Source: Ilex aquifolium (lineage: Eukaryota; Streptophyta; Magnoliopsida; Aquifoliales; Aquifoliaceae). Taken from it: a stretch of DNA of 64,000 bases. The DNA lies in assembly GCA_951799425.1 (NCBI GenBank), contig OX637391.1, forward strand, positions 49,757,069 to 49,821,068. Direction: 5' to 3'. The position numbers and the translations under genes are program-made. The first letter of the stretch is position 1; every line of letters starts with the position of its first letter. Shown in pieces: positions 31,055-53,196 of the stretch. The notes beneath the pieces are model-generated. The model made no database searches and was not told the DNA's origin. It was given only the letters and a program-made list of their open reading frames with translations.

Positions 31055-31922
31055 TGTAAGACCCGTATTAAAATTAAATAACGATAATACTTTCTTAAGA
31101 GTTCTCCTAAGATGAATAAAATGATGGCAGAATCTTAGAATCATTGTTGAAATAATTGATTATGAAGTTTAAGTTTCAAGCGTATTGACTTTCGGGGTAA
31201 ATTGATTTTTGGAGATGTTTAAGTATGAGAAGTGTGGTTAAGTAATATTATAAATATTTTTACGTCAAAATAAGGTTTCCATTGAATTTGGAAGGTCAAA
31301 AAACCTTGGGAGATGTTATATATATATATATATATATTTTTTTTTTTTTTGGAAGGGGGAAGGAGGAAGGGGGCTTGAACCCTTGACCTCAAGAAGGCAC
31401 AAGGTAAAGAATACCATTAGACCTAAGACCCATTGGTCTTGGGAGATGTTATATGGGGTGTACTAGAAGTTTGGAAGTATTCTAGAGTTAAAATCAATTT
31501 TGGAAAGGATTTGGGTAGAGTAAAATTTGACAGTACCTTAATATTTAGATCATAACTTTTTATGTTGATTTATGATTGATCCGAAATTTTTACAGAGAAA
31601 TTAGACTTAAAGGGCTATAAAATTTTATTTCACGAAATTTTTTAGAATCGGCTTCTAACAAGGTCAAAATTGATCTGCAAGTCAGGGACAGATAGTTACC
31701 CTTGCCCAGATGGGAATTCTCTATTTTTCAGCCTATAAATACTATAAGACCGCGATCTAAAGGTCTTTACCTATCCTTTTGACCCTAAGAATCCTAGGAA
31801 AGTTTGAGGAGAAAAAAATAAGGAAGAACGGGATAAATCTTGAAGGATTAATGTAGGGTAATCGCAACGAAACTTCTTACGATCAAGATCTCAAGAATCA
31901 AGGTAGGGGTTTCTTCCTAAAC

Positions 31923-31960
<38 letters not shown>

Positions 31961-33198
31961 TGATTCTAAATCATATGTATATGTTATAAAATTATTATTT
32001 TTTTGTTTTCTTGCAAATCGTATTATGTCTTGAATGAGGTTATTATTTGATAGCTATAAAAACTCTCGTTCTTGTTATCAAAACCATAATTTTCAAGAAA
32101 GATAGGTTTTACCCTAGATATTCCATTGTTCTTGATTTAAAAACTCTAGTGTTTTGTTTGAACAATAAAATTATATTTCTTGATGATCTCTTGAATATTT
32201 TCTTGAGTTGTTCTGTTGGAAAAATATATGTGGAATTATGATTTTTGGTTTACCTGTGATTTGGTGAAGTGGTTTGGTATAGTATCTCTTGTGTGGATGT
32301 TTTGATGAACATGAGTGATCATTGACCGGGTATCGTAGAGTGGGTAGATGCGTTTCTTACTCCAAGTGAGATTGAAGGTTCCCTACCACTCGTAGTTGGA
32401 TTGGTGCCTTGCAAGGACCAAACCACTATTCGCTTACAGGTATCGAGGCTGGGGGCTAGTATACTATTCATGAGTTGGATTCGTCACTACTGATTCATCA
32501 ATAAACACCCTTCCTAAAGTTATGTAGCCTTGCGAGGATTGGGTGTGAGTATGTGGGTCAGGATATTCTCAATGTGTATATTCATATTAAGTCTTACTAC
32601 ATACCTGAGATACAGTGTTGGTAATGGTTTGTTCTTTGAAAGTTGGTTTTGCTTCTTCATTTTTAATTTATTACTACTACGTAAACTTGAGATTTGATGA
32701 ACTGTCACTGTTTTATTTCAAAAGTTATATATGATATTTTGTAAAATGAGACCGACTTGTTTTATATGTTTTCAAAACCTTGTACGAGTTTGGAAGGATT
32801 TTCCTACAGAGCTTAGTACTCACCCCTTACAAACAATGTCTTTTTTGGATTACGGTCGAGAGGAAGAGCTCGGATTAGATGAGCAAGTAAATTGACAAAC
32901 TTAGATTGATGAGAACGTGGATCCCGAGGTAGACGTTTAGAGCTGTTTCCTTTATGTTCCTGATGGGGAGGCTAATTATGAGAAAATAGTAAGGATAATG
33001 TTTTATTTAATCTGCTGCAAGATAATATTTGATGTTTGGATATAATTGGTATGGTTTGACGTATTTGTTTTGGATGACGATTTAGTTATTATGGATGATG
33101 AATGTAATTTCTTTTATCTATGGATTTTATTAGTTGCTCTCATGATATGAATGGTTATAGATAGTAATGCCTTCTAGGGTGGATTTTGGAGTGTTACA
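31055..33198 (+). repeat. Left LTR of the chromovirus-like element
   Basis: 2,144 bp with a TATA box (CCTATAAATACTATAAG near 31733). It is 136 bp longer than the right LTR, and 133 bp of that is the SINE and its duplicated target at 31321-31453. Confidence 0.9.
31321..31437 (-). mobile_element. tRNA-derived SINE copy 2
   Basis: Minus strand reads A-box-like TAGGTCTAATGG, B-box-like GGTTCAAGCCC, a CT-rich stretch and an A tail. Flanked by perfect 16-bp duplications, cttgggagatgttata, at 31305-31320 and 31438-31453. The same site is uninterrupted in the right LTR, which proves insertion after the host element integrated. Confidence 0.85.
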
Positions 33199-37590: not shown

Positions 37591-39598
37591 TGTAAGACCC
37601 GTATTAAAATTAAATAAGGATAATATTATCTTAAAATTTTTCCTAAGATGAATAAAATAATGGCATAATCTTAGAATCATTATTGAAATAATTGATTATG
37701 AAGTTTGAATTTGAAGCGTATTGACTTTCGGGGTAAATTGAGTTTTCGAGATGTTTAAGTATGAGAAGATGATTAAGTAATATTATAAATATTTTTAGGT
37801 CAAAATAAGATTTTCATTGAATTCGGAAGGTCAAAAAACCTTGGGAGATGTTATATGAGGTGTACTAGAAGTTTGAAAGTATTCCGGAGTTAAAACTAAT
37901 TTTGGAGAGGATTTAGGTAAAATAAAATTTGACACTATCATAGTATTTAGATCACAACTTTTTACGCTGATGTCTGATTGATCTAAAATTTTTACAGTAT
38001 AAACTAGACTTCAAGGGATATAAAAGTGTATTTCACGAGAAGTTTTAGAATTGGCTTCTAACAACGTAAAAATTGATCTGGAAATCAAGGGTAGACAGTT
38101 ATCTGCACCCAGACGCAAATTCTCTATTTTTTAGCCTATAAATGCTATAGGGCCGCGATATAAAGTATATTTACCTATCCTTTCAACCCCAATAATTATA
38201 GGAAAGTTTGAGGAGAAGAAAAGGAGGAAGAATGGGCTAAATCTTGAAGGATTAAAGTGGGGTAATTATAACGAAACACGTTAAAATCAAGATCTCAAGA
38301 ATCAAGATAGGGGTTTTTTCCTAAACTTGTCCATTGAGGATAGAGTTAATATATATGTATGTTTTGATTCTAGATCGTATGTATATGCTAGAAAATCATT
38401 GTTTCTTGGTTTTCTTGCAAATCGTATTATGTCTTGAAAGAGGTTATCGTTTGATAGCCAAAAAAACTCTCGTTCTTGTTATCAAAACCCTAGTTTTCAA
38501 GAAAGATAGGTTTTACCCTTGATATTTCATTGTTTTTGATTTAAAAACTCTAGTGTTTTGTTTGAACAATAAAATTATATTTCTTGATAATCTCTTGCAT
38601 ATTTTTTTGAGTTGTTATGTTGGAAAAATACATGTGGAATTATGGTTCTCGGTTTATTTGTGATTTAGCGAATTGGTTTGATATAGTATCTCTTGTGTGG
38701 ATGTTTTGATGAAGACGGGTGACTGTTGACCGAATATCGTAGAGTGGGTAGATGCGTTTCTAACTCCAAGTGAGTTTGAAGGTTCCCTACCGCTCGTAAT
38801 TGGGTTGATGTCTTGCAAGGACCAAACCACTATTCACTCATGGGTATCGAGGTTAGAGGCTAGTATACTATTCTTGAGTTAGATTTGTCACTGTCGATGC
38901 GTTAATATACGCCCTTCCTAAAATTGTGTATCCTTGTGAGGATTGGGTGTGTGTGTGGGTCAGAATATTCTTAATGTGTGTATTCATGTTAAGTCTTACT
39001 ACATACCTGAGATACAGTGTTTGTAATTGTTTGTTGTTTGAAAGTTGGTTTTGCTTCTTCAATTAATTTATTGCTATTACGTAAACTTGAGATCTGATGA
39101 ACTATCACTGTTTTATTTCAAAAGTTATATATGATATTTTGTAAAATGAGACCGACCTATTTTATATATTTTCAAAACCTTGTTCGAGCTTGGAAGGATT
39201 TTTCTACATAGCTTAGTGCTCACCCCTCTACAAATAACATCTTTTTTCAGATTACGGTCTAGAGGAAGAGCTCGGATTGGATGAGCAAGTAAATTGGGAA
39301 GCTCACATTGATGGAAACGTGGATTCTGAGGTGGACGTTTAGAGTTATTTCTTTTATGTTCTAGATGGGGAGGTTAATTATGAGAAAATGTTAAGGATAA
39401 TGTTTTATTTAATCCGCTACAAGATAATATTTGATTTTTGGATGTAATTGTCATGATTTGACGTATTTGTTTTGGATAACACTTTAGTTTATGGATGATG
39501 AATGAAATTTTTTTTATTTATGAATTTTATTAGTTGTTCTCATGATATGAATGGTTATAGATAGTAATGCATTCCAGGGTGGATTTTGGGGTGTTACA
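37591..39598 (+). repeat. Right LTR of the chromovirus-like element
   Basis: 2,008 bp, the direct-repeat partner of 31055-33198, with TATA box CCTATAAATGC near 38137. It carries the empty SINE site near 37840-37858. Confidence 0.9.
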
Positions 39599-40000
39599 TA
39601 ACCCATGTTCATCACACCCACTAATACAAGGGATAATTTTCATAAAGTCCACATATAATCACGAATCACGATTCCACAATTGTCAATATAGAACAATTTC
39701 AAGAAAACTTGCAAGAAATCTCCAAAAAATATGTTCGAATTGATAATAATCAAAAACTAGGGTTTTTGAAATAAAAAAATGGGATTTGTGATGTAAAACT
39801 TGTGATTCTCTCAAGAAACGAATCATATTATCAAAAAGAGTATGAAAGAATTGTATATCTATCATATATGATCGAATAAAAAAAACAAAACATACATATA
39901 AATAATCCTAACTCTCAATGAGTGAACTTGAGAAAGAACCCTACCTTAATCCACAAGTACTTGATCTTAACACGTTTTGAAGCGAAGACCATGCGTTAAT

Positions 40001-41641
40001 TGATTAACCCTAATTTATGCATAATTTAATTAGGGTTAATAGGACAATTGTGTTAGTTAAACTAGTCAAAATAAGTCAAATTATGGTTAGTAATGTAATT
40101 AATGATAATGCATTAATTGTTGTTCTTTTCAGGATTTCTTTGTGTCAAAGCTACAAATTACTGGGGAGCCAATTATCAAAGCATAGGGTGTCAATTATTA
40201 AAGCTCAAAACAAAGGGAGATCAAAGTGTAAATCAAGATCTTCTTGATATTTGTAAAGGGCATCTTTTAGGATATAATATTTGTAAAGGGCATCTTTTAG
40301 GATATAATATTTGTAAAGGGCATCTTTTAGGATATACTAATGACATCTTCTTGATATTTGTAAAGGGCATTTTTTGGATGCCTATAAATACCACTCATTG
40401 GGGCTTGTAAAGATAATATTTTTCTCTTGTATCACCTTTCTTGTAAAGAGCATCTCTTAGTAGTGGAAAACCCTCCAAAAGTCTTGATTGCTTTCTTGTA
40501 TCATTTTTCTTGTATTATTGCTTTATTTACTTTCAAGTATTATTGCTTTATTTACTTTCAAGTATTATTGTTTTCTTTACTTTCTTGCATTATTGCTTTC
40601 TTTACTTTTTTGTATTATTGCTTTCTTTTACTTCCATTGTTGAGCTTCCTTCTTCCCTTAGAGGAGTGAAACTCTTCCACTTTTCTAGAGCTTTACCAAA
40701 GCCGTGAAGGGTGGAACGTGATTCACTCATTCTTTGTCGAAGATCGGCTCCTTGTGTAATATATTTTTACCTTGTAATTCCTCTACTTGGAGGGATGAGC
40801 ATCACTTACTTTTCTAGCTTTACCAAAGCAATGAAGAGTAAGTAGTTTCTCATTCACTCTTTAGCAAGAGGTGATGTACATGAATAAATTATCCGGAAGT
40901 TATATTGATGCATTTCGTTTATGCTTAGCTCCAATCTTCATTTCTTCATAATGTCTTTTCATTACATTGTTGTCTTTACCTTAAGCATGAGTAGCTAAAT
41001 CTTTAAGTTGGCTAATCCAAGGGAGACCTCCTCTTGGGCATGCCATTTCAACTCATCTGCTTTTCTCCCTTCAGTGTACGATGGTTCGGTTTAACTGGGT
41101 TGAGAGAAGACATGGTGTGAGTCTTTGATATCCCGTAGACTTGTCACGGGTTATGCTTAGATCGTCACTTCCATCTCGTCCCTCGCTTCCCACGAATCAA
41201 TCGTTCATCTATGCACCATTGGAGGAAGGGTTTGAGTCGACTTGACATTCCCATTGGAGTGAAACCTTTTGATTAGTCAACACTTGTTTCCCATTTCAAT
41301 TTCATCACAACACCAATCACAAACCAACTTCAAACAACAAAAAGATTTTACATTTTTCTTTCACTAAAAATTACCTTCTACACGATTCACCTCCTTCCCT
41401 GAGGAGACGACCTTGGAATACAATTCCAAGTAAAACACGACACACAAAAGTCTTCTTGCGCTTGTGAAGTATTTTTGTTCACACACACACACACACACAC
41501 ACACACATTTCATTGATTCCACCATTCCGTTGCCCTTTCTTTTGACATCATTCCAAGAGAGAGTGACACTCCCCTCCACACATAGACTTTACGTATTGAG
41601 GGATGATGTCCGGAGGATAGGAACAACAACGGTTTTAGTCA
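40001..41641 (+). repeat. Left (inverted) LTR of the Athila-like element
   Basis: 1,641 bp, TGATTAACCC to TTTTAGTCA. U3 has three 30-bp tandem units (40251-40336) ahead of the TATA box CCTATAAATACC (40381). It is followed by AGCATTTTTG, the short leader that normally sits between LTR and primer-binding site, and then by the polypurine-tract side of the element. Confidence 0.88.
40251..40336. repeat. 30-bp tandem repeats in the LTR U3
   Basis: Unit CATCTTTTAGGATATAATAT followed by TTGTAAAGGG, three copies, about 45-130 bp upstream of the LTR TATA box. They are also present at 52063-52150 in the other LTR. The position suggests an LTR enhancer. Confidence 0.85.
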
Positions 41642-41651
41642 AGCATTTTTG

Positions 41652-41665
41652 CACCCCCCAACCTA
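41652..41665 (-). other. Polypurine tract of the Athila-like element
   Basis: Minus-strand GGTTGGGGGGTGC abuts the leader remnant of the inverted LTR. In a normal element the LTR 5' end (TGATTAACCC) would follow. Here the reverse complement of leader plus U5 follows. Confidence 0.7.
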
Positions 41666-43481
41666 AACATTACTAGTCCCTAGTAATAAATAACAACAGA
41701 ACAACATAAAATCACTTTCGTAGATAACACGATTGCATTTAGCATATGCAACAAGCCGTTAAACCCCTAGGTGATCCCTAGTGGACGAGTTTTGTCTCGT
41801 GAAGGTTTCTAGTGAAGCTACCTACAAACTCCAGTTAAAAATATGTGTATATGCGTTAGCACCATGATCGTTGAGACACCCCATCCTTTAATTTTTTTTT
41901 TTTTTTTTTTATAAGAGAAATAGAACACTTCTTTGTCATTGGTACATAATATATGCAAAAATAAACACTTGTTATATTGGTATTTGAAATTCCCTATGTA
42001 GTAAGAATGATCATTCACGTCACAGGAATTGTTATATAATAAACACTCCATTTTACTACCTTCCATGGATAGCTTCGATTTCACAAACCTCTCGTAGAAT
42101 GCTCTCAGCAAAAGTTCACTCCGATTAGAGTGACTTATCTCTTACGGGGCATATGATCAGAGGGTGGCCAATCGAAAAATCACATGCACAATTAGGAAGG
42201 GAGTGAAGTTTAAGGAAACAAACTAATCATGTTTGGCATAATCTCATGAAAGAATATTGATGCAATTTAAAGAAATATTATTTATCATACCCCACTTTTG
42301 GTTGACGACACATGCATGCAACAGACTTGAGATCAATTAGGATTTTTTATAGGTTGTAATGTGACCAGAGGTCAGTGGCTTACCAAATGACGTCAATGAT
42401 TTTCAAAAGCTATCATTTCATTCTGTAATGTAGCACACTTCTTTCTAACTTTTCGACATTTTGCCCAGAAATAATATTTCTTTCTTTCATTTTTTTTTTT
42501 TTGTTTTTTTCATTTTTCACTTTCTTGGCAATTTCCTGCCTTTCTGTTTCTTTTCTGTTTCAATTGTTCCCATCGCTTTTTTTTTTGGTCATTGAATAGT
42601 AACCTCTATAACTTTTTCCCTTTTTCTTGCATTTCTGTATCATATTGATTTATAAGAGGGTGCAAGAAAATTAGATAGCAAAGGTATGTCAAGCATATTC
42701 TCTTGTTGCTTGGTAATCATACGGGCTATTTGGAAAAAGTTCGTTCATTGAAGGCTCAATCACGGTTAACTAGGGATATAATTTTGTACAAGAAATGGCT
42801 TAAGGCTCAAAATTAAGTCAAAGATGGCCTAAGATCATTTCTCAAGTATGTGCACATGTATGTGTCGTATGAACAGATTTCTTGGGGGATACAGATTGCC
42901 TTAGTTGCGTCAATCAAAGCAAATTTAATGAGATTATTCAAAAATAGAGAGTGAAAGACCTTACTTGAATAAATGTTAATTGTCTCTCAAAAGTATAGTA
43001 AGGCTCAAAACTTACCATGGTATTCTTTGTCATCTCCACTAGTAATGTCTGATTTTTCATGGAATGTCGGTTATATACCGATTCTATTTTCGAGTCTGGT
43101 CATTCCGTACCTTAAGAATAACAAATAGCAATGTACATTTGACATTTAAGCATAGAGAAAATACAATTTTTCAAGGAAATGAGGTTTTTTTTTTTTTATA
43201 CTGGAATTCAAAATCAAACAAAATCAAAGTTATTTACATATATATTTATCTATGAAAATTGAAAGAAGACTAAATGCACAAATTGAACTTGGAAATTTAT
43301 GGCGTCTCAGGATCAGTCCCTACCCATGCTATAGTTTGGCATTTTAGGACATTCCTTACTTGGCCCACATCTTTATTTCAACAACAAGACTTTGTACAAA
43401 AAATATTTACAAAAAAGTTCGGACCCTTAACCTTCATCCCAAAACACGTTTTTCCACAGCTTTGTCTTTATTAGTCAAAAT

Positions 43482-43757
43482 CTAATCCGAGTCATCGCTT
43501 GTGTCTGTGTCATTATTAGTGACCCTTCCAACTTCTTGTAACACATAACGTGTAAGTCCCGGGCTGGAATAAGATGGCGTGTCAGGAAAATCCTTACTCT
43601 GCCCATACACTATCCAGTTTAATCGATCGGTTGCACGACCCGAAATTGGTTCAGAACACTGATTGTATTTTTTCATGTGAAAACACATGCCACATTGTTT
43701 ACAAGCACCCAGTCGTTTGACACGACGACGTTTAGCATAAGTGCTTCTGCCACACAA
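43482..43757 (-). CDS. Unrecognised small Cys-rich ORF in the Athila-like element
   Basis: 91 codons on the same strand as gag-pol, about 1.1 kb after its stop. It has a basic N-terminal patch (AKRRRVKR), a CX2CX4HX6C pattern (CKQCGMCFHMKKYNQC) resembling a relaxed zinc knuckle, and an acidic tail (DTDTSDDSD). I do not recognise a family. It lies where Athila elements may carry an env-like or extra ORF, but has no signal peptide or membrane segment. It could be captured host sequence or a chance ORF. Confidence 0.4.
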   Translation of the reverse strand: MCGRSTYAKRRRVKRLGACKQCGMCFHMKKYNQCSEPISGRATDRLNWIVYGQSKDFPDTPSYSSPGLTRYVLQEVGRVTNNDTDTSDDSD

Positions 43758-44881
43758 TGGTTTTGCTTGTGCTTCTCAGATTTCAATTTTTCTCACAACT
43801 CTTGCCTTTTTCATTATCACAGCATACACATTGGATGGAAATGTGCGTAAAACGCCTAAACTGAACCAAAAAAGTTTACTATCCATGCTTGCTAAAATTA
43901 GAGACACCCTATCTGGTTCTTTAACGTCTGCCAGTCACAAAGACGATTGAAACTGCATCCGATGTGATCATGAAATATAGGCACAAATACTGTAAAAATA
44001 CGCAATCTAGAATAAAAATAAATAGAACCCTTTTTTTTTTTTTTTGTGTAGGACTGTGAACTGTTCAGATCTAAAACTAGAATTACAAATACGAAACTAG
44101 AGAAAGTAGATCCACACCCCCCAATCTAAACTGAACATTGTCCCCAATGATTCGAATTTACCAGTGTATGAAGTTTGGAAATGAGGTTGTAAGATACAAA
44201 TATGTTCAGCTGCCGAAACCTACAAACAACACACACCAATTAATCATCTTCTAGGGAGATTTGGGTTCGGCTGAAAACCTTTAAATGCGAACAGAAGAAG
44301 AACACCCATGAACAAATACAGCATATAACGCAAATTATTAAACAAATGACTGGGTCTTCGGGTTCTACAACCATGAATTTGTAGGGGGTGGGTTGTTTTT
44401 ACAGAGAACAACGAAGAAAAAGAAGAAGAAGAAGAAAAGAAAAGAAGAAGAAGAAGGGGGGGGGGGGGGGGGACCAACACCGGTGATGGGGGAAAAAAAA
44501 GAGTGGGAAGCCTAATAAAGGCATCCCAGTAGGTCGGCCCCTTTTTTTTTTTTTAAAGCGAGTGTCGACAGGCGCTAGTGTCGGCAGGCGCGAATATTCG
44601 CGCAGAATATTCCCACAAACATTGGTTTAAGATGCAAATAGTGCTCCTCACCCCCCAACTTGAATCATGTATTGTCTTCAATGAAACAACAATGTATGAT
44701 ATTCAATGAAGGACAGTAAAAAAAATGAGTAGGGTTAGAAAACACCTTGCAATTTAGCTTCGATAAAAGCACCAATATCTGAAACTCAGAAAAACAATAC
44801 TATATAAACAAAAAAAGTAAGTGACATAAAAATAACATAAATAAATAAAAGCATCTGTACACTAAAAAACATAAATACTAG

Positions 44882-47800
44882 CTACTCCTCCACCAAATCC
44901 AGATACACCGGATTAATTAAATCCTCCTCCACCATCTGTCCTTCAAAACCCTCAAAGAATGGCTTAAGCCTTTGGCCATTGACCTTGAATGTCTGGCCAT
45001 TGTCGGGGTTTGTGACATCCACAGCTCCGTTGGGGTAGGCCACCTTGACAAGATAGGGGCCATCCCAACGGAATCGAAGTTTTCCTTGGAAAATGGATAG
45101 ACGAGAATTGTATAAAAGCAATTTTTGCCCGGACTCAAATGATTTCCTCACAATGGATTTGTCATGAAAGATTTTGGTCCGTTCTTTTGAGATTTTGGAG
45201 CTTTCATACGCCTCTCTTCTAATCTCCTCTAATTCATTCAACTCTAACTTTCTTTGCTCTCCAGCCATCCTTAGGTTGAAGTTCAAAGTCTTAATGGCCC
45301 AATAGGCCTTATGTTCCATTTCGACCGGCAAGTGGCAAGCCTTTCCAAAGACAAGCCGATAGGGAGACATGCCTAATACAGTCTTGTAGGCGGTGCGGTA
45401 GACCCATAAAGCATCAATCAGTCTCTCAGACCAATCCTTCCTGTTTGGGTTAACCGTCTTTTCTAAAATATTTTTGATCTCCCTATTGGCCAATTCGGCT
45501 TGGCCATTGGTTTGTGGGTGGTATACAATGGATACTTTGTGTGTAACGCCATATTTAAACATTAAAGATGCAATTGGCCTATTACAGAAATGTGACCCAC
45601 CATCACTTATTATCGCACGAGGCATCCCAAACCTCGAAAAAATGTTCTCTTTGAGGAACTTGACTACAACCCGGTGGTCATTAGTCTTGGTCGGGATAGC
45701 CTCCACCCACTTGGATACATAGTCCACTGCCAGTAGAATGTAGAGATAACCAAATGACATAGGGAAAGGACCCATGAAGTCGATGTCCCAATAGTCGAAT
45801 ATTTCTATGACAAGCACAGGGGAAAGGGGCATCATGTTTCTTCGGGTCACACTACCCAAGCGCTGGCATCTATCACATTCTTTGCAAAATGAAACACAGT
45901 CTTTTATAACTGAGGGCCAATAAAAACCTGATTGAAGAATTTTAGCTGAAGTCTTTTTCGCAGAGAAATGGCCACCGCATGCTTGTGAATGGCAAAATGT
46001 CAAGACGTCCCGCTGTTCATTCTCAGGTACGCATCTCCTCATGACTTGGTCAGGACAGTACTTGAACAGGTACGGGTTGTCGAAGTAAAAGTACTTCACA
46101 TCTGCCATAAATCGTCTTCGATCCTCTGGGCTCCACTGCAGTGGTATCTGTCCTGTTGCAAGATAGTTACATATATCAGCGTACCAAGGACACACAGAAT
46201 GAATTGAAAACAATTGTTCGTCAGGAAAAAAGTCAGGGATAGGAATGTGCTCATCGGCCTCTTGCACCACAAGCCAGGATAAATGATCTGCTACCACGTT
46301 CTCAACTCCTTTCTTGTCCTTGATTGTCAAGTTGAATTCTTGTAGGAGGAGTATCCACATAATGAGTCTCGGTTTAGCATCCTGCTTAGACAACAAATAC
46401 TTCAAAGCAGAATGATCAGTAAAGACAACAATAGGTGAACCTATGATGTAAGAACGGAATTTATCTAAAGCAAATACTACTGCTAGCAACTCTTTTTCTG
46501 TGGTAGTGTAATTCATTTGAGCTTCATTGAGCGTTTTGCTAGCGTAGTATATTACATACGGTCTATTTTTCTCCATTTGACTGAGCACTGCACTGACCGC
46601 ATAATCACTCGCGTCGCACATGAGCTCAAAAGGTAGATCCCACCTGGGTGGTCGCATGATCGGAGGTGTGACTAACATGCTTTTAAGTTTTTTAAAAGAT
46701 GTCTCACAATCATCCGACCACTCGAATGGGACCTCCTTAGACAATAAGTTGGTCAAGGGTCGGGCCAATACACTAAAATTTTTTATAAAGCGACGATAAA
46801 ACCTGGCATGGCCCAAAAACGACCGGATGTCCTTGATAACTCTTGGCGTAGGGAGGTTGGAGATGGCCTCCACCTTGGATTTGTCGACTTCAATACCCCT
46901 TGCTGAAACTATATGGCCAAGCACAATTCCCTCCGTCACCATAAAGTGACACTTTTCCCAGTTCAAGACTAAATTTTTTTCTTCACACCTCTCCAACACT
47001 CTCTCCAAATTTCCCAAGCATCCATCGAATGAGTCCCCAAACACTGAAAAGTCATCCATGAAGATCTCCACTATCTTTTCCACCAAGTCACTAAAAATCC
47101 CCATCATGCATCGTTGGAAAGTCCCCGGAGCATTACATAGTCCAAATGGCATGCGGCGGTAGGCGAAGGTACCATAGGGGCATGTGAAGGTGGTCTTCTC
47201 TTGATCTTCCAATGCGATCTCTATTTGATTATAGCCAGAGTACCCATCTAGAAAGCAATAGAATAGGTGCCCTGCTACTATTTCCAAAACTTGAACAAGA
47301 AATGGCATTGGAAAGTGATCTTTCCTTGTGCATGCGTTAAGCTTCCGGTAGTCAATGCAAACCCTCCACCCGGTTATGACTCTCGTAGGTATAAGCTCAT
47401 TCTCAGCATTCTCCACCACCGTGACTCCAGATTTCTTTGGTACTACTTGTGTGGGACTAACCCACTTACTATCGACAATCGGAAAGATGATGCCCACGTC
47501 AAGTAGTTTTAATACCTCATCCTTCACCACCTCCTTCATGATGGGATTCAACCTTCTCTGAGGTTGTCGGGAAGGTTTGGTATCCTCCTCAAGATAAATG
47601 CGGTGGGTACAAATGATAGGGCTTATTCCCTTGATGTCGGCAATTGTCCAACCAATTGCCCCTTTATGCTTTCTCAATACCTCCAAGAGTCTTTCTTCTT
47701 GTTCCGCATTCAAGGTCGAGCTTATAACTACCGGAAAAGTTTCACCTTTACCAAGATAGGCGTACTTCAAATGGGAGGGTAAAGGCTTCAACTCCAAGTT

Positions 47801-49834
47801 TGGATTTTGTTTATTCGATGGAAAGATTTTCTTTTCTTGATGGGGTAACTCTTCGAATGTAGGGATCCACCTTTCCACCCCCTTCAAATCTTCTACCTCC
47901 TCTTGCTCCTCAAACTTTTCAAGATCAACAACTCCTTCTTCATTGAATTTTAACATCTCCTCCAGCTCCAAGTGCTCCTCAACCAAAGTGTCGATTCTAT
48001 TAACCTCACTTACTTCCTCGTCATCACCTGGTTGCTTTGCCAAGTTGAATACATTGAGTTTCATTGTCATATTCCCAAATGCCAACTTCATTAGACCGTT
48101 CCTGCAATTTATCACAGCATTAGATGTAGCAAGGAAGGGTCTTCCAAGTATTACGGGAATTTGGGAGCTAAGGTTTGCAACAGGGTGTGTATCAAGCACA
48201 ATAAAATCGACGGGAAAGTAGAATTTATCAATTTGAACTAAGACATCCTCAACTACTTCCCTTGATGTACGAACACTACGGTCCGCCAATTGAAGCGTGA
48301 TTGAGGTGGGCTTTAACTCCTCAAGCTGAAGTTGTTGATACACCGAGTAAGGAAAGAGATTGACACTAGCCCCCAAATCGAGCAATGCTTGCTCCACCCG
48401 GCAATTTCCTATGGTGATGGCAATTGTTGGACAGCCGGGGTCTTTGAATTTCGGAGGAGTGTTGGTCATCAATATTGAGCTCACTTGCTCGGTGAGGAAT
48501 GCTCTCTTGTGAATATTCAGTCTCCTCTTCACCGTGCATAGATCCTTCAAATTTTTTGCACAAGATGGGATTTGCTTGATGGCGTCGAGGAGTGAAATGT
48601 TAATCTTCACCTGCTTAAACATTTCCAAAATATCAGCATAATTAGCCACCTTGACATGTGGCTTCAAACGACTAGGAAACGGGGCAGGAATATGGGAAAC
48701 AATCACACTATCATCAACCAATTTCTTTTCCTCAACTTCCTCTCTTTCTTTCTTTTCACTTGACTCACCCTTGTTGGTGTCACCCATGGTCTCTTCTTCT
48801 TTTTGCAATGTGGTTTTGGGTGAAACCTTTGGCACAACAGATTTATCGATTTTTTTTCCACTACGAAGGGTGGTGACAGCCTTGAGTTGCTCACAATTCT
48901 CTTTAGTGGACTCGGATGACTCAATCACGTGTTGGCCCTTAGGGTTCTCTTGGGGTTGAGCGGGGAATTTCCCATTTTCTTGTTGTGACAACCCTATGTG
49001 ATTGGTAATTTTGGTGAGTTGAGCTGAAATGTTATTGTTAAAGGTGGTTTGGCTTTGGATGAAATTGTAGAGCATATCCTCCAAGTTCCTTTTATGGGGA
49101 GGTTGGTAGGTGGAAGGATTAGATGGTGCTTGTTGGGGAGAACTTTGGGGAGATGGACCTTGGGAGAAATTGTGTGGGGATGGATTTGACGAATACCCTT
49201 GCGGATTGGACCAGGGGTATTGGGAGCTAGACGCTTGCCCTTGACCTTGGGATTGAAATTGATTTTGCCTAGGAGGTACAGGAGGTGAATATGCATTTGA
49301 ACCATGAGGAATGGGATTTTCATTTCTCCAACTGAAGTTCGGGTGATTGCTCCAACCCGGATTGTAGGTGTTTGAATGTGGAGAAAATGATTGCCTCGTT
49401 TGGTTAAAGACATGTACTTGCTCATGGTACACTTCCTTAAGTGTCGGAATGTTGGGGCAATCCGATATGGAATGCCCCACACTTTCACAAATTGAGCAAA
49501 ACTCCTCTATCTTTGAAACATTAGACACCTCGTGCCTCCTATTGACTTCAAGACTTTCAACTTTCCTTGACAATTTAGAAATTTTTGAAAGCAAGTCTTC
49601 CCGGTCTCTCAAGTCATACATCCCTCCTCCTTGAGTTTGGCCACTCCCTTGAGGAGAAGATCTTGGTACATCGGTGGGATCCCTAATGTCCCAAGATTGT
49701 GCATTAAGGGCCAAAGTTCTAAAGTAGTCAAGGGCCTCATCGGGGTCTTTGTTCAAAAACTCGCCATTACACATCATGTTAATAAATTGTCTATGACTCG
49801 GTGTAATTCCTTCATAGAAGAAACTCACCAATTG
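44882..49834 (-). CDS. Athila-like gag-pol polyprotein (protease, RT, RNase H, integrase)
   Basis: Open for about 1,650 codons after the TGA at 49835. Approximate residues counted from 49831: end of gag; CCHC knuckle near 110 ([14 protein letters not shown]); Pro/Gln-rich linker; protease near 483 ([13 protein letters not shown], with DLG as in Athila/Tat); RT 750-960 with FMDD near 923; RNase H near 1080-1170 ([11 protein letters not shown]); integrase HHCC near 1290-1320; and the D,D-35-E core near 1347-1448 ([26 protein letters not shown]). RT precedes integrase, the gypsy order. No frameshift, so the copy is young. It has no start codon of its own and needs the upstream gag frame. Confidence 0.93.
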
Positions 49835-50491
49835 TCATGCTGTGAAACCATGATGTGGAATGAATTGCAATAACTCCTTGTAACGATCCCAACATTGGTA
49901 GAATTGCTCATTGGGCTTCTCCAAAAAGTTTTGAATTTCTTTTTTCAAAGTGGTGGTTCTATGAACCGGGAAAATATTGTTTAAAAACTCAGAGAGCATT
50001 TGGTTCCAAAATGTTATGGAGTGAGGTCTCAAGGAGTTAAACCATGTTTTTGCCTTATCTCTCAGGGAAAAGGGAAACAATTTCAGCCTAGCTATGTCTT
50101 CCATACCATGATTGGTGAGGAAGGTCGCAACTATTTCCTCGAAATCCCTTATGTGCAAATAGGGGTTCTCCTTTTCAATTCCGTGGAACGTGGGAAGTAG
50201 TTGCAACATCCCCGGCTTAACTAGGAAGAGATGAGCTTGGGGTGGGAGTCGGATGCATGATGGTGTGGTGCTTCGTGTGGGTTGGAGGAAATCTCTCATT
50301 GACCTCGCCGGAGGCTCAATGTGGATGTTGTTCCCTTCATTTACGGGAAGGGGAATTTGCATTCTCGGATTAGGCATTCTAGGTTCTCGTCCTCCCCCAC
50401 CCTGTTGCATGTTCGGGTTAGCACCTACATTATTAAAATTATCACCCGCATCCTCGGGCAGGTCTAGGTCAAGGTTCATGTTGGGGTCCAT
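49835..50491 (-). pseudogene. Athila-like gag, N-terminal part, closed by one TGA
   Basis: Starts at the in-frame ATG 50491 (MDPNMNLDLDLPED). The retrotransposon gag domain lies in its second half (WFNSLRPHSITFWNQMLSEF ... FYQCWDRYKELL). The frame ends at TGA (49837-49835) in the middle of the gag fold, and the same frame stays open from there to 44882. So one substitution separates this fragment from the rest of gag-pol. The stop could in principle be read through, but a simple nonsense mutation is the easier explanation. Confidence 0.85.
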
Positions 50492-50667
50492 GGGTTGTCT
50501 AACTAGTCGACGTTGTTCGTCCCGACCCCATATATACAAAATTATTTACAAATGAAAATGCAAACAACAAAAGTATATACAAGGATCAACGTACCTTAGC
50601 CCATGATGAACATTACGGGACTTACCTTCGTTGTCCGGAAATCACCTTCTAGGTTCAACGCTTGCCT

Positions 50668-50685
50668 TCCCCGGCAACGACGCCA
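50668..50685 (-). other. Athila-type primer-binding site
   Basis: Minus-strand TGGCGTCGTTGCCGGGGA is one base from the TGGCGCCGTTGCCGGGGA site (tRNA-Asp type) typical of Athila/Tat elements. It starts about 8 nt after the LTR. Confidence 0.85.
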
Positions 50686-50693
50686 AAAATACT

Positions 50694-52403
50694 TGACTAA
50701 AACCATTGTTGTTCCTATCCTCCGGACATCATCCCTCAATACGTAAAGTCTATGTGTGGAGGGGAGTGTCACTCTCTCTTGGAATGATGTCAAAAGAAAG
50801 GGTAATGGAATGGTGGAATCAATGAAATGTGTGTGTGTGTGTGTGTGTGAACAAAAATATTTCCCAAGCGCAAGAAGACTTTTGTGTGTCGTGTTTTACT
50901 TGGAACTGTATTCCAAGGTCGTCTCCTCAGGGAAGGAGGTGAATCTTGTAGAAGGTAATTTTTAGTGAAAGAAAAGTGTAAAATCTTTTTGTTGTTTGAA
51001 GTTGGTTTGTGATTGGTGTTGTGATGAAATTGAAATAGGAAACAAGTGTTGGCTAATCAAAAGGTTTCACTCCAATGGGAATGTCAAGTCGACTCAAACC
51101 CTTCCTCCAATGGTGCATAGATGAACGATTGATTCGTGGGAAGCGAGGGACAAGATGGAAGTGACGATCTAAGCATAACCCGTGACAAGTTTACGGGATA
51201 TCAAAGACTCACACCATGTCCTCTCTCAACCCAGTTAAACCGAACCATCGTACACTGAGGGGAGAAAAGCAGATGAGTTGAAATGGCATGCCCAAGAGGA
51301 GGTCTCCCTTGGATTAGCCAACTTAAAGATTTAGCTACTCATGCTTAAGGTAAAGACAACAATGTAATGAAAAGACATTATGAAGAAATGAAGATTGGAG
51401 CTAAGCATAAATGAAATGCATCAATATAACTTCCGGATAATTTATTCATGTACATCACCTCTTGCTAAAGAGTGAATGAGAAACTACTCACTCTTCATTG
51501 CTTTGGTAAAGCTAGAAAAGTAAGTGATGCTCATCCCTCCAAGTAGAGGAATTACAAGGTAAAAATATATTACACAAGGAGCCGATTTTCGACAAAGAAT
51601 GAGTGAATCACGTTCCACCCTTCACGACTTTGGTAAAGCTCTAGAAAAGTGGAAGAGTTTCACTCCTCTAAGGGAAGAAGGAAGCTCAACAATGGAAGTA
51701 AAAGAAAGCAATAATACAAAAAAGTAAAGAAAGCAATAATGCAAGAAAGTAAAGAAAGCAATAATACTTGAAAGTAAATAAAGCAATAATACTTGAAAGT
51801 AAATAAAGCAATAATACTTGAAAGTAAATAAAGCAATAATACTTGAAAGTAAATAAAGCAATAATACTTGAAAGTAAATAAAGCAATAATACAAGAAACA
51901 TGATACAAGAAAGCAATCAAGACTTTTGGAGGGTTTTCCACTACTAAGAGATGCTCTTTACAAGAAAGGTGATACAAGAGAAAAAGATTATCTTTACAAG
52001 CCCCAATGAGTGGTATTTATAGACATCCAAAAAATGCCCTTTACAAATATCAAGAAGATGTCATTAGTATATCCTAAAAGATGCCCTTTACAAATATTAT
52101 ATCCTAAAAGATGTCCTTTACAAATATTATATCCTAAAAGATGCCCTTTACAAATATCAAGAAGATCTTGATTTACACTTTGATCTCCCTTTGTTTTGAG
52201 CTTTAATAATTGACACCCTATGCTTTGATAATTGGCTCCCCAGTAATTTGTAGTTTTGACACAAAAAAATCCTGAAAAGAACAACAATTAATGCATTATC
52301 ATTAATTTACATACTAACCCTAATTTGACTTATTTTGACTAGTTTGACTAACACAATTGTCCTATTAACCCTAATTAAATTATGCATTAATTAGGGTTAA
52401 TCA
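50694..52403 (-). repeat. Right (5') LTR of the Athila-like element
   Basis: 1,710 bp on the minus strand, differing from the left copy by a few percent. It has five copies of a 25-bp unit (about 51766-51890) where the left copy has two, which accounts for most of the length difference. TATA box near 52012-52020. Confidence 0.9.
51766..51890. repeat. 25-bp tandem repeat array in the right LTR
   Basis: Five copies of ACTTGAAAGTAAATAAAGCA plus ATAAT. Only two copies are at the equivalent place in the left LTR (about 40515-40565). Confidence 0.85.
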
Positions 52404-53196
52404 TTAATCCTTCAATATTTAGCCTGCTCTTCCTCATTTTCTTCTCCTCAAAATTTTCTAGGTTTTTTGGAGTTGAAAAATAGGTAAAGGAACGTCAAAT
52501 CATGGCCCTAGCATATTTATAGTCAAAAAGAAATAAAACCTAAAATACAAAGCGCTGCTGTTTTTAGCGAGGTGTTCGGACGATTCTAGGGGCATCCAAA
52601 TGCCACCAATTCTCTGGTTTGCACAATTTCACTTTCTAGATAGGCATCAAAACACTTAAGGAGGTGTCCGAACGCAAGCAAATTTCTATCCAGACTTCTG
52701 GCTTGAATTTGACCTAGTTATAGAAGTCGATTCAAAAAAAATTACAAGAAATACACTTTTGTAGCCTTGAAGTCTACTTTCTAATTTTCAAATATCAGAT
52801 CAATTGGAGTTTATGTAAAATATTATGACCAAAATACTAAGTTAATATCAAATTTCTTTCTATCCGAATTCTCCCCAAAATACGTTTTAACTCCAGAATA
52901 CTTTCAAATTTCTAATACACCCCATATCACATCTCCCAAGGTTTCTCAACCTTCCAAATTAAATAGTAACCTTATTTTGACCTAAAAATCTTTAGAAAAT
53001 TACCTAGTCACCTTTTTCAAGCTTAAACACCTCCGGAATTAAATTTGACCCGAAAGTGAATATGTGCGAAACTCAAACTTCATGGTCAGTTTTTCAACAA
53101 TAATTCAAAGTTTCTACCATCATTTTATTTATTTTAAGAGTATTCTTAAGATGATATTATCCTTATTTAATTATAGTGCGAGAATTTTACAAGATC

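Follow-up and report, generated by a model that had tools for sequence, protein, structure and literature searches.

The window, a stretch of 64,000 nucleotides from Ilex aquifolium (holly; contig OX637391.1, positions 49,757,069 to 49,821,068), carries at 40001-52403 a minus-strand element that is predicted to be a non-chromovirus, Athila-like Ty3/gypsy retrotransposon with a tRNA-Asp primer-binding site (PBS). An earlier note on this DNA placed gag-pol on the minus strand behind a normal 5' long terminal repeat (LTR) and PBS, and that arrangement stands. The 5' LTR (50690-52403, minus strand) is in normal orientation, with its U3 end, 52403, facing outward, and is followed by the PBS TGGCGTCGTTGCCGGGGA (50668-50685, minus strand), which is complementary with one mismatch to the 3' end of tRNA-Asp(GTC) plus CCA; a tRNA-Asp PBS is a feature of the Athila-like lineage. 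Next on the same strand are an open frame with a Retrotrans_gag domain (49835-50545) and an open frame with protease, reverse transcriptase (RT), RNase H, integrase zinc-binding and integrase core domains (44882-49834). The Pfam matches run in the order RT, RNase H, integrase, and none of them (E 0.001) is a chromodomain downstream of integrase. Athila-like elements carry an env-like frame between pol and the 3' LTR that some members lack; none was found here, there being no stop-to-stop frame of at least 150 amino acids in 41652-44881, which takes in the 3' region between pol and the polypurine tract (PPT; 41664-44881, minus strand). The end of the PPT, GGTTGGGGGGTG (41652-41663, minus strand), has kept every base up to U3 when compared with normal copies.

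Behind the PPT lies a complete LTR in inverted orientation (40001-41645, plus strand), its U3 end, 40001, pointing outward and its U5 end, GTCAAGCA, pointing inward. LTR limits, TGATTAACCC...GTCAAGCA, were fixed from the target-site duplications (TSDs) of direct-LTR copies. The outer limits in the earlier note (40001-41641 and 50694-52403) were correct, and the inner ones lie four bases further, at 41645 and 50690. That note also described the LTR behind the PPT as reversed, with the same LTR end at both termini, and proposed aligning the left LTR with the reverse complement of the right. In this self-comparison, 39996-41651 matched the reverse complement of 50684-52407 at 93.3% over 1732 columns, gaps counted, and TGATTAACCC faces outward at both outer termini; the direct LTRs of a normal LTR-retrotransposon insertion, which ends in U3 on one side and in U5 on the other, are not found. 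The two LTRs differ by 33 substitutions in 1638 aligned bases, and in length by a 75-bp tandem-repeat and a 6-bp CA-repeat difference. Over their full length they are reciprocal nearest neighbors (K2P 0.0205, within the range of 0.0145 to 0.0481 for 11 direct LTR pairs), and they form a clade with support of 100/98 in a tree built from 38 LTRs of the family. Four bases are common to the two and absent from the other 37 rows compared, against 0 to 13 such bases for direct pairs. This kinship is close over the first three quarters of the LTR. Over LTR bases 1241-1645 the two are not nearest to each other (the right ranks 17th of 38 for the left, and the left 7th of 38 for the right), although the four rows closest to each are the same among the 38 compared. 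That part does not argue for a second source but could hide one, and it counts in part against a single cDNA.

The element ends adjoin a perfect 5-bp TSD, TTAAT, at 39996-40000 and 52404-52408. When flanks were mispaired among 22 family insertions as a chance control, 5/5 matches arose in 0 of 462 pairings and 4/5 matches in 14 of 462, which upholds the earlier observation of the same five bases at both ends. The joined flanks align without a break to two older minus-strand repeat copies, 38369-38129 (72%) and 31921-31733 (74%), each of which holds one TTAAT across the junction; no target bases are missing, and the older repeat does continue across the insertion point, as had been claimed. Because there is one TSD and an uninterrupted empty site, 40001-52403 is a single integration with two U3 outer ends, in agreement with the earlier reading of the whole 12.4 kb as one event.

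At the inner junction, the PPT is kept up to the base before U3, as a comparison with 14 PPT-LTR junctions indicated, and the U5 side keeps TTTT (41646-41649, plus strand) and TG (41650-41651, plus strand), as judged against 17 other LTR-PBS junctions. TTTT is the four bases that separate U5 from the PBS in normal copies, and TG is PBS bases 1 and 2, the complement of CA in the tRNA-Asp CCA tail. The joint between PPT and U5 has neither microhomology nor filler bases. The inner junction unites the PPT/U3 boundary with the U5 end plus TTTT and TG, both of them termini that reverse transcription defines. In direct copies, the integrated U5 ends have no TTTT, so a joint made by integrase should presumably lack it as well. 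The genome has four matches to the LTR end plus TTTT and TG with A, C or T as the next base. One is the present locus, one a normal copy whose PBS is mutated, and two are unrelated. A heritable inverted lineage was considered and rejected, since the exact joint of PPT and U5 terminus occurs once in the genome (two further matches have three mismatches), with no sign of a replicating subfamily that carries it.

A genome search for other inverted-LTR copies with matching TSDs, as the earlier note had suggested, yielded a second, independent two-U3 insertion, at C1:8922837-8934448, with a perfect TSD, CATGT, and an inner fold-back joint, which counts in favor of the mechanism proposed below. Inverted segments occur in four further family copies, one of which (C13) formed after integration. 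This copy, at C13:30.526 Mb, has an inverted LTR and 63 bp of mirrored host flank inside the insertion and an outer TSD, ATTAT; because an outer 3' LTR is present and host flank is mirrored, it was dropped as a two-U3 candidate, and its post-integration inverted LTR counts against the mechanism proposed below. At C19:18.457 Mb there is one U3 end, the right LTR being cut at LTR position 1236 and followed by a 58-bp pol piece, and the copy at C6:35.05 Mb (D5) has no TSD. Fold-back spacers at three other loci, read by eye, measure about 52, 35 to 51 and 33 nt, of which the second varies with the alignment of a 16-bp repeat and is 32 by BLAST coordinates. Other rearranged family joints share three to five bases (TAG and CTCAG at same-strand deletions, GTCAA at an inverted joint).

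Because reverse transcription termini meet at the inner junction, the LTR flip most likely arose before integration, through a template switch or ligation of cDNA. We infer this timing, as well as a single cDNA and a step in reverse transcription; probably, one abnormal cDNA was flipped at the PPT/U3 boundary during reverse transcription and inserted once. The 5' LTR, PBS and gag-pol would have been copied normally, and the 3' LTR would have been joined backwards at the PPT/U3 boundary, the site of plus-strand priming and interruption, through its U5 terminus, to which TTTT and two bases templated by the tRNA primer were still attached. The upstream plus strand may have switched at this boundary to the free 3' end of plus-strand strong-stop DNA, or a double-stranded LTR piece may have broken off there and been ligated back in flipped orientation. 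Either route would give a linear cDNA with a U3 terminus at each end, both of which integrase would process and insert in concert, leaving a normal 5-bp TSD. At its end, plus-strand strong-stop DNA normally carries 18 bases derived from the tRNA; the joint has two, which counts against this mechanism, as does the derivation of the step from one event.

Alternatively, two cDNAs, one ending at the PPT and one reduced to an LTR, were end-joined before integration and integrase used one U3 of each. The blunt joint resembles end joining, having no homology where other rearranged copies share three to five bases, and the final 400 LTR bases fail to pair left with right, yet we consider this rather unlikely: it requires two closely related molecules, each ending at a precise reverse transcription terminus, and the short fold-back spacers elsewhere favor switching within one or a paired molecule. 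Much less probable is a normal insertion whose 3' LTR broke and was repaired by inverted copying of the 5' LTR. A comparable event is seen at C13:30.526 Mb, but 40001-52403 has no mirrored flank, and repair would have had to copy from LTR base 1 through the second PBS base and to put this copy in place of the old LTR with exact boundaries at TSD and PPT.

The opposite LTR orientations could also reflect two opposite-strand insertions fused afterwards by deletion. We give this almost no weight in view of the one TSD, the complete target, the LTR clade and the absence of chance TSD matches; within the limits of the assembly, the continuous empty site also speaks against it. On the same grounds of TSD, target and clade, the left LTR is not an independent insertion on the opposite strand flanked by a TSD of its own, the finding that would have overturned the earlier note. 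Long inverted repeats can be assembled wrongly, and the structure is read from the assembly; an assembly or chimeric-read artefact is nevertheless highly improbable, since a flipped normal 3' LTR would have no TTTTTG on its U5 side, differences at 33 of 1638 sites show that the left LTR did not arise as a simple fold-back copy of the right, and the TSD is perfect. Autointegration, in which a processed cDNA end attacks its own cDNA, is a route to LTR inversions in circles. To our knowledge, its products are circles or truncated molecules, unlike a linear two-U3 molecule with full gag-pol, and the U5 end at the joint has not been processed (GCA-TTTT-TG), which leaves this explanation barely credible.

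LTR inversion is already known in HERV-K, and the structure at 40001-52403 is a variant of it. Hughes and Coffin reportedly described HERV-K elements with inverted LTRs in 2002. For HERV-K124, a retroelement insertion with LTRs in inverted orientation, the available part of the report speculates on LTR inversion and template switching (PMC3625200); of its three LTRs two are truncated, whereas in the holly element both LTRs are complete, the body is intact, a TSD is present and the inner joint falls at the termini of PPT and U5. Complex LTR retrotransposons formed by template switching have been assigned to reverse transcription and taken as single because a TSD flanks them and their outer LTRs are alike (Sabot and Schulman 2007, PMC1950507). 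The holly element shares both features. Those complexes are three-LTR dimers for which inversion is not described, in contrast to two LTRs with no internal third here. Among HIV-1 proviruses, inversion and inversion with deletion were each found once (1.3% each); these are integrated genomes with inverted segments, as here, but two-U3 outer ends are not mentioned in the accessible text (PMC9278108). An inverted LTR pair is called the classic structure of locust Gypsy-25, which may be a parallel; the available excerpt gives no TSD or junction (PMC8786324). DIRS-1, as far as the source's available portion goes, is a tyrosine recombinase element (PMC5633606), whereas the holly element has a TSD, and its domain matches include an rve integrase but no recombinase; DIRS-type elements have inverted repeats, and in the holly element's family inversion is not the rule. 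We recognized no plant precedent in searches of the open-access literature; two plant papers that use these words do so with a different meaning.

The inner joint appears to record a reverse transcription intermediate to the base, with a break at PPT/U3 and a tRNA-trimmed U5 end, and the insertion at 40001-52403 shows that a plant gypsy integrase is able to insert two U3 ends in vivo. It is possible, although we hold this only tentatively, that the family repeatedly makes two-U3 linear cDNAs by plus-strand switching or fold-back and that integrase inserts them in concert, in which case copies bearing terminal inverted repeats (TIRs) would be a regular by-product of reverse transcription and not of chromosome repair. 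If frequent, two-U3 copies would be missed by LTR finders that require direct LTRs, would tie retroelements to TIR-like architecture and would create long inverted repeats, potential sources of silencing or rearrangement. With terminal inverted repeats, such copies would look outwardly like DNA transposons.

The gag-pol strand of the Athila-like element is flanked by LTRs that run in opposite directions, and the inverted pair that the earlier note had described was borne out by a minus-orientation self-match (93.3% over 1732 columns) as well as by an LTR alignment. The family LTR reads TGATTAACCC...GTCAAGCA and is followed by TTTT and then by a PBS complementary to tRNA-Asp. With boundaries derived from the TSDs of direct-LTR copies, the left LTR, the inverted copy behind the polypurine tract (PPT), therefore occupies 40001-41645 (+) and the right LTR 50690-52403 (-). 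The two LTRs differ by 75 bp, or three units, of a 25-bp tandem repeat (40530-40610 versus 51720-51900). Each carries a near-perfect hairpin in the first 40 bases of U3, adjoining the integrase end (40003-40040 and 52364-52401; -14.1 and -17.8 kcal/mol as RNA, respectively).

Both outer ends are TGATTAACCC, facing outward, and both abut TTAAT, as had been claimed. The proposal of a single integration likewise held: once joined at a single TTAAT, the flanks show continuous alignment with 38369-38129 and with 31921-31733 (minus strand), two older copies of the host repeat with TTAATCCTTCAA once in each. The host family is also seen as an older direct repeat pair with 86.9% identity (31438-33198 and 37840-39598). 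As a TSD control, we used 22 family insertions, 16 with two LTRs and 6 solo LTRs, in which the terminal motif at each locus was picked by eye and was identical for true and mispaired flanks. True pairs matched at 5/5 positions in 17 cases, at 4/5 in 4 and at 0/5 in 1 (D5, at C6:35.05 Mb), while the 462 mispaired flanks gave no 5/5 match and 14 at 4/5.

At the inner joint, the PPT is complete to its last base and continues into CA-AAAA-TGCTTGAC, which on the opposite strand is U5-TTTT-TG. The TG represents the first two PBS bases, complementary to the CA in the tRNA CCA; no overlap or filler was found at this joint. One partner of the joint thus ends at the PPT/U3 boundary, the site of plus-strand priming and discontinuity, and the other at the U5 terminus of linear cDNA, which still bears two bases left over from the primer. 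The integrated U5 ends of direct copies are without TTTT, and integrase is therefore not expected to leave it.

Judged from these sequences, the LTR flip most likely arose during or just after reverse transcription, mainly because the joint termini and the retained TTTT would be unexpected from integrase or chromosomal repair. Repair in the chromosome can also invert an LTR, and a family copy on C13 provides an example, but it offers no reason for endpoints exactly at the PPT/U3 boundary and U5-TTTT-TG. For a flip during or after reverse transcription, RT may have switched template to plus-strand strong-stop DNA, or an LTR fragment may have been ligated back in flipped orientation; the sequence does not tell these apart, and we lean slightly toward the template switch. 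A genome search with the inner joint gave a single exact match, the window locus, so this step is drawn from one event.

Two sibling cDNAs, instead of one, could also have supplied the LTRs, and LTR kinship does not separate these origins and is silent over the last 400 bases. In a tree of 38 of the 43 extracted LTRs (excluding three from C19:5.73 Mb, the C13 outer LTR and one divergent copy), the window LTRs form one clade with support of 100/98, and four bases common to both occur in none of 37 other rows compared. Over LTR bases 1-600 and 601-1240, they are mutually nearest among the 38. Over bases 1241-1645 (41241-41645 / 50690-51094), the right LTR is 17th of 38 in nearness to the left, and the left 7th in nearness to the right, and therefore the last quarter gives the pairing no support. 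Several other family LTRs are closer to the window LTRs in this U5-side quarter than these are to each other, the same four rows are nearest to both, and in a U5-side genome search (best 40 candidates scored) the right window LTR was outscored by four other LTRs. Either their own mutations or another source may account for this divergence. The K2P distance between the window LTRs is 0.0205, versus 0.0145 to 0.0481 in 11 direct pairs; literature substitution rates of 1.3e-8 and 0.7e-8 per site per year give an insertion age of ~0.8-1.5 million years.

Related structures have been described elsewhere. PMC3625200 reports LTR inversion in HERV-K124 and credits a possible mechanism to Hughes and Coffin 2002, and inversions are noted for HIV-1 in PMC9278108. 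Two further papers term an inverted LTR pair the classic structure of locust Gypsy-25 (PMC8786324) and give DIRS-1 inverted LTRs with a tyrosine recombinase (PMC5633606). Sabot and Schulman 2007 argued that TSDs and similar outer LTRs show reverse-transcription complexes, for which, unlike the window element, no inversion was described (PMC1950507).

A family survey with two LTR queries, the best 40 candidates of each being scored, recognised 17 two-LTR arrangements retrieved at least at both ends; nine further LTR regions and matches on C24 and C63 were left out. Eleven arrangements are direct and six, including the window, contain an inversion. Three of these were mapped from their ends only: C1:8.92 Mb has a U3 end on either side, the TSD CATGT, two deletions, and arms connected by a fold-back that includes a 52-nt spacer and 3 filler bases; at C19:18.457 Mb the fold-back spacer is 35-51 nt long and the right end is truncated, which places this copy outside the TSD count; and C9:26.23 Mb has TSD GCGTG, normal outer polarity and LTR-gag inverted inside. 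Outer polarity is also normal at C19:5.73 Mb (TSD GTGGT, LTR fold-back with a spacer of ~33 nt) and at C13:30.526 Mb (30.52-30.54; TSD ATTAT), where an inverted 5' LTR copy and 63 bp of mirrored host flank lie inside (extracted regions L009 1049-4215 and L010 2008-3663). Because host flank is mirrored within the insertion, the C13 inversion was made after integration, and it is templated repair. Two-U3 products with a perfect TSD make up 2/16 TSD-testable two-LTR insertions (window and C1:8.92 Mb), versus no two-U5 product with a TSD among the same 16, a difference that is only suggestive. Other members of the family contain joints of the fold-back, deletion and short-homology types (L012 1105-2234, L013 3563-5479, L016 3440-3480 and L018 2069), and three fold-backs have spacers of ~33-52 nt.

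The query for the primer was a 23-base tRNA 3' end, with 20 exact genome matches and 28 with at most one mismatch; a tRNA scan of two matching loci gave tRNA-Asp GTC in 2/2. Other copies supplied 14 PPT-LTR junctions for comparison; there the PPT has the form ...GGTTGGGGGGTG, its G run being somewhat variable, and TGATTAAC comes directly after it. Besides the window, 9 of 40 genome matches to the PPT end adjoin an LTR from the LTR queries, all 9 in normal orientation. Downstream of pol on the minus strand, TTGGGGGGTG occurs three times (44658-44649, 44124-44115 and 41661-41652), and these copies are possible extra polypurine tracts.
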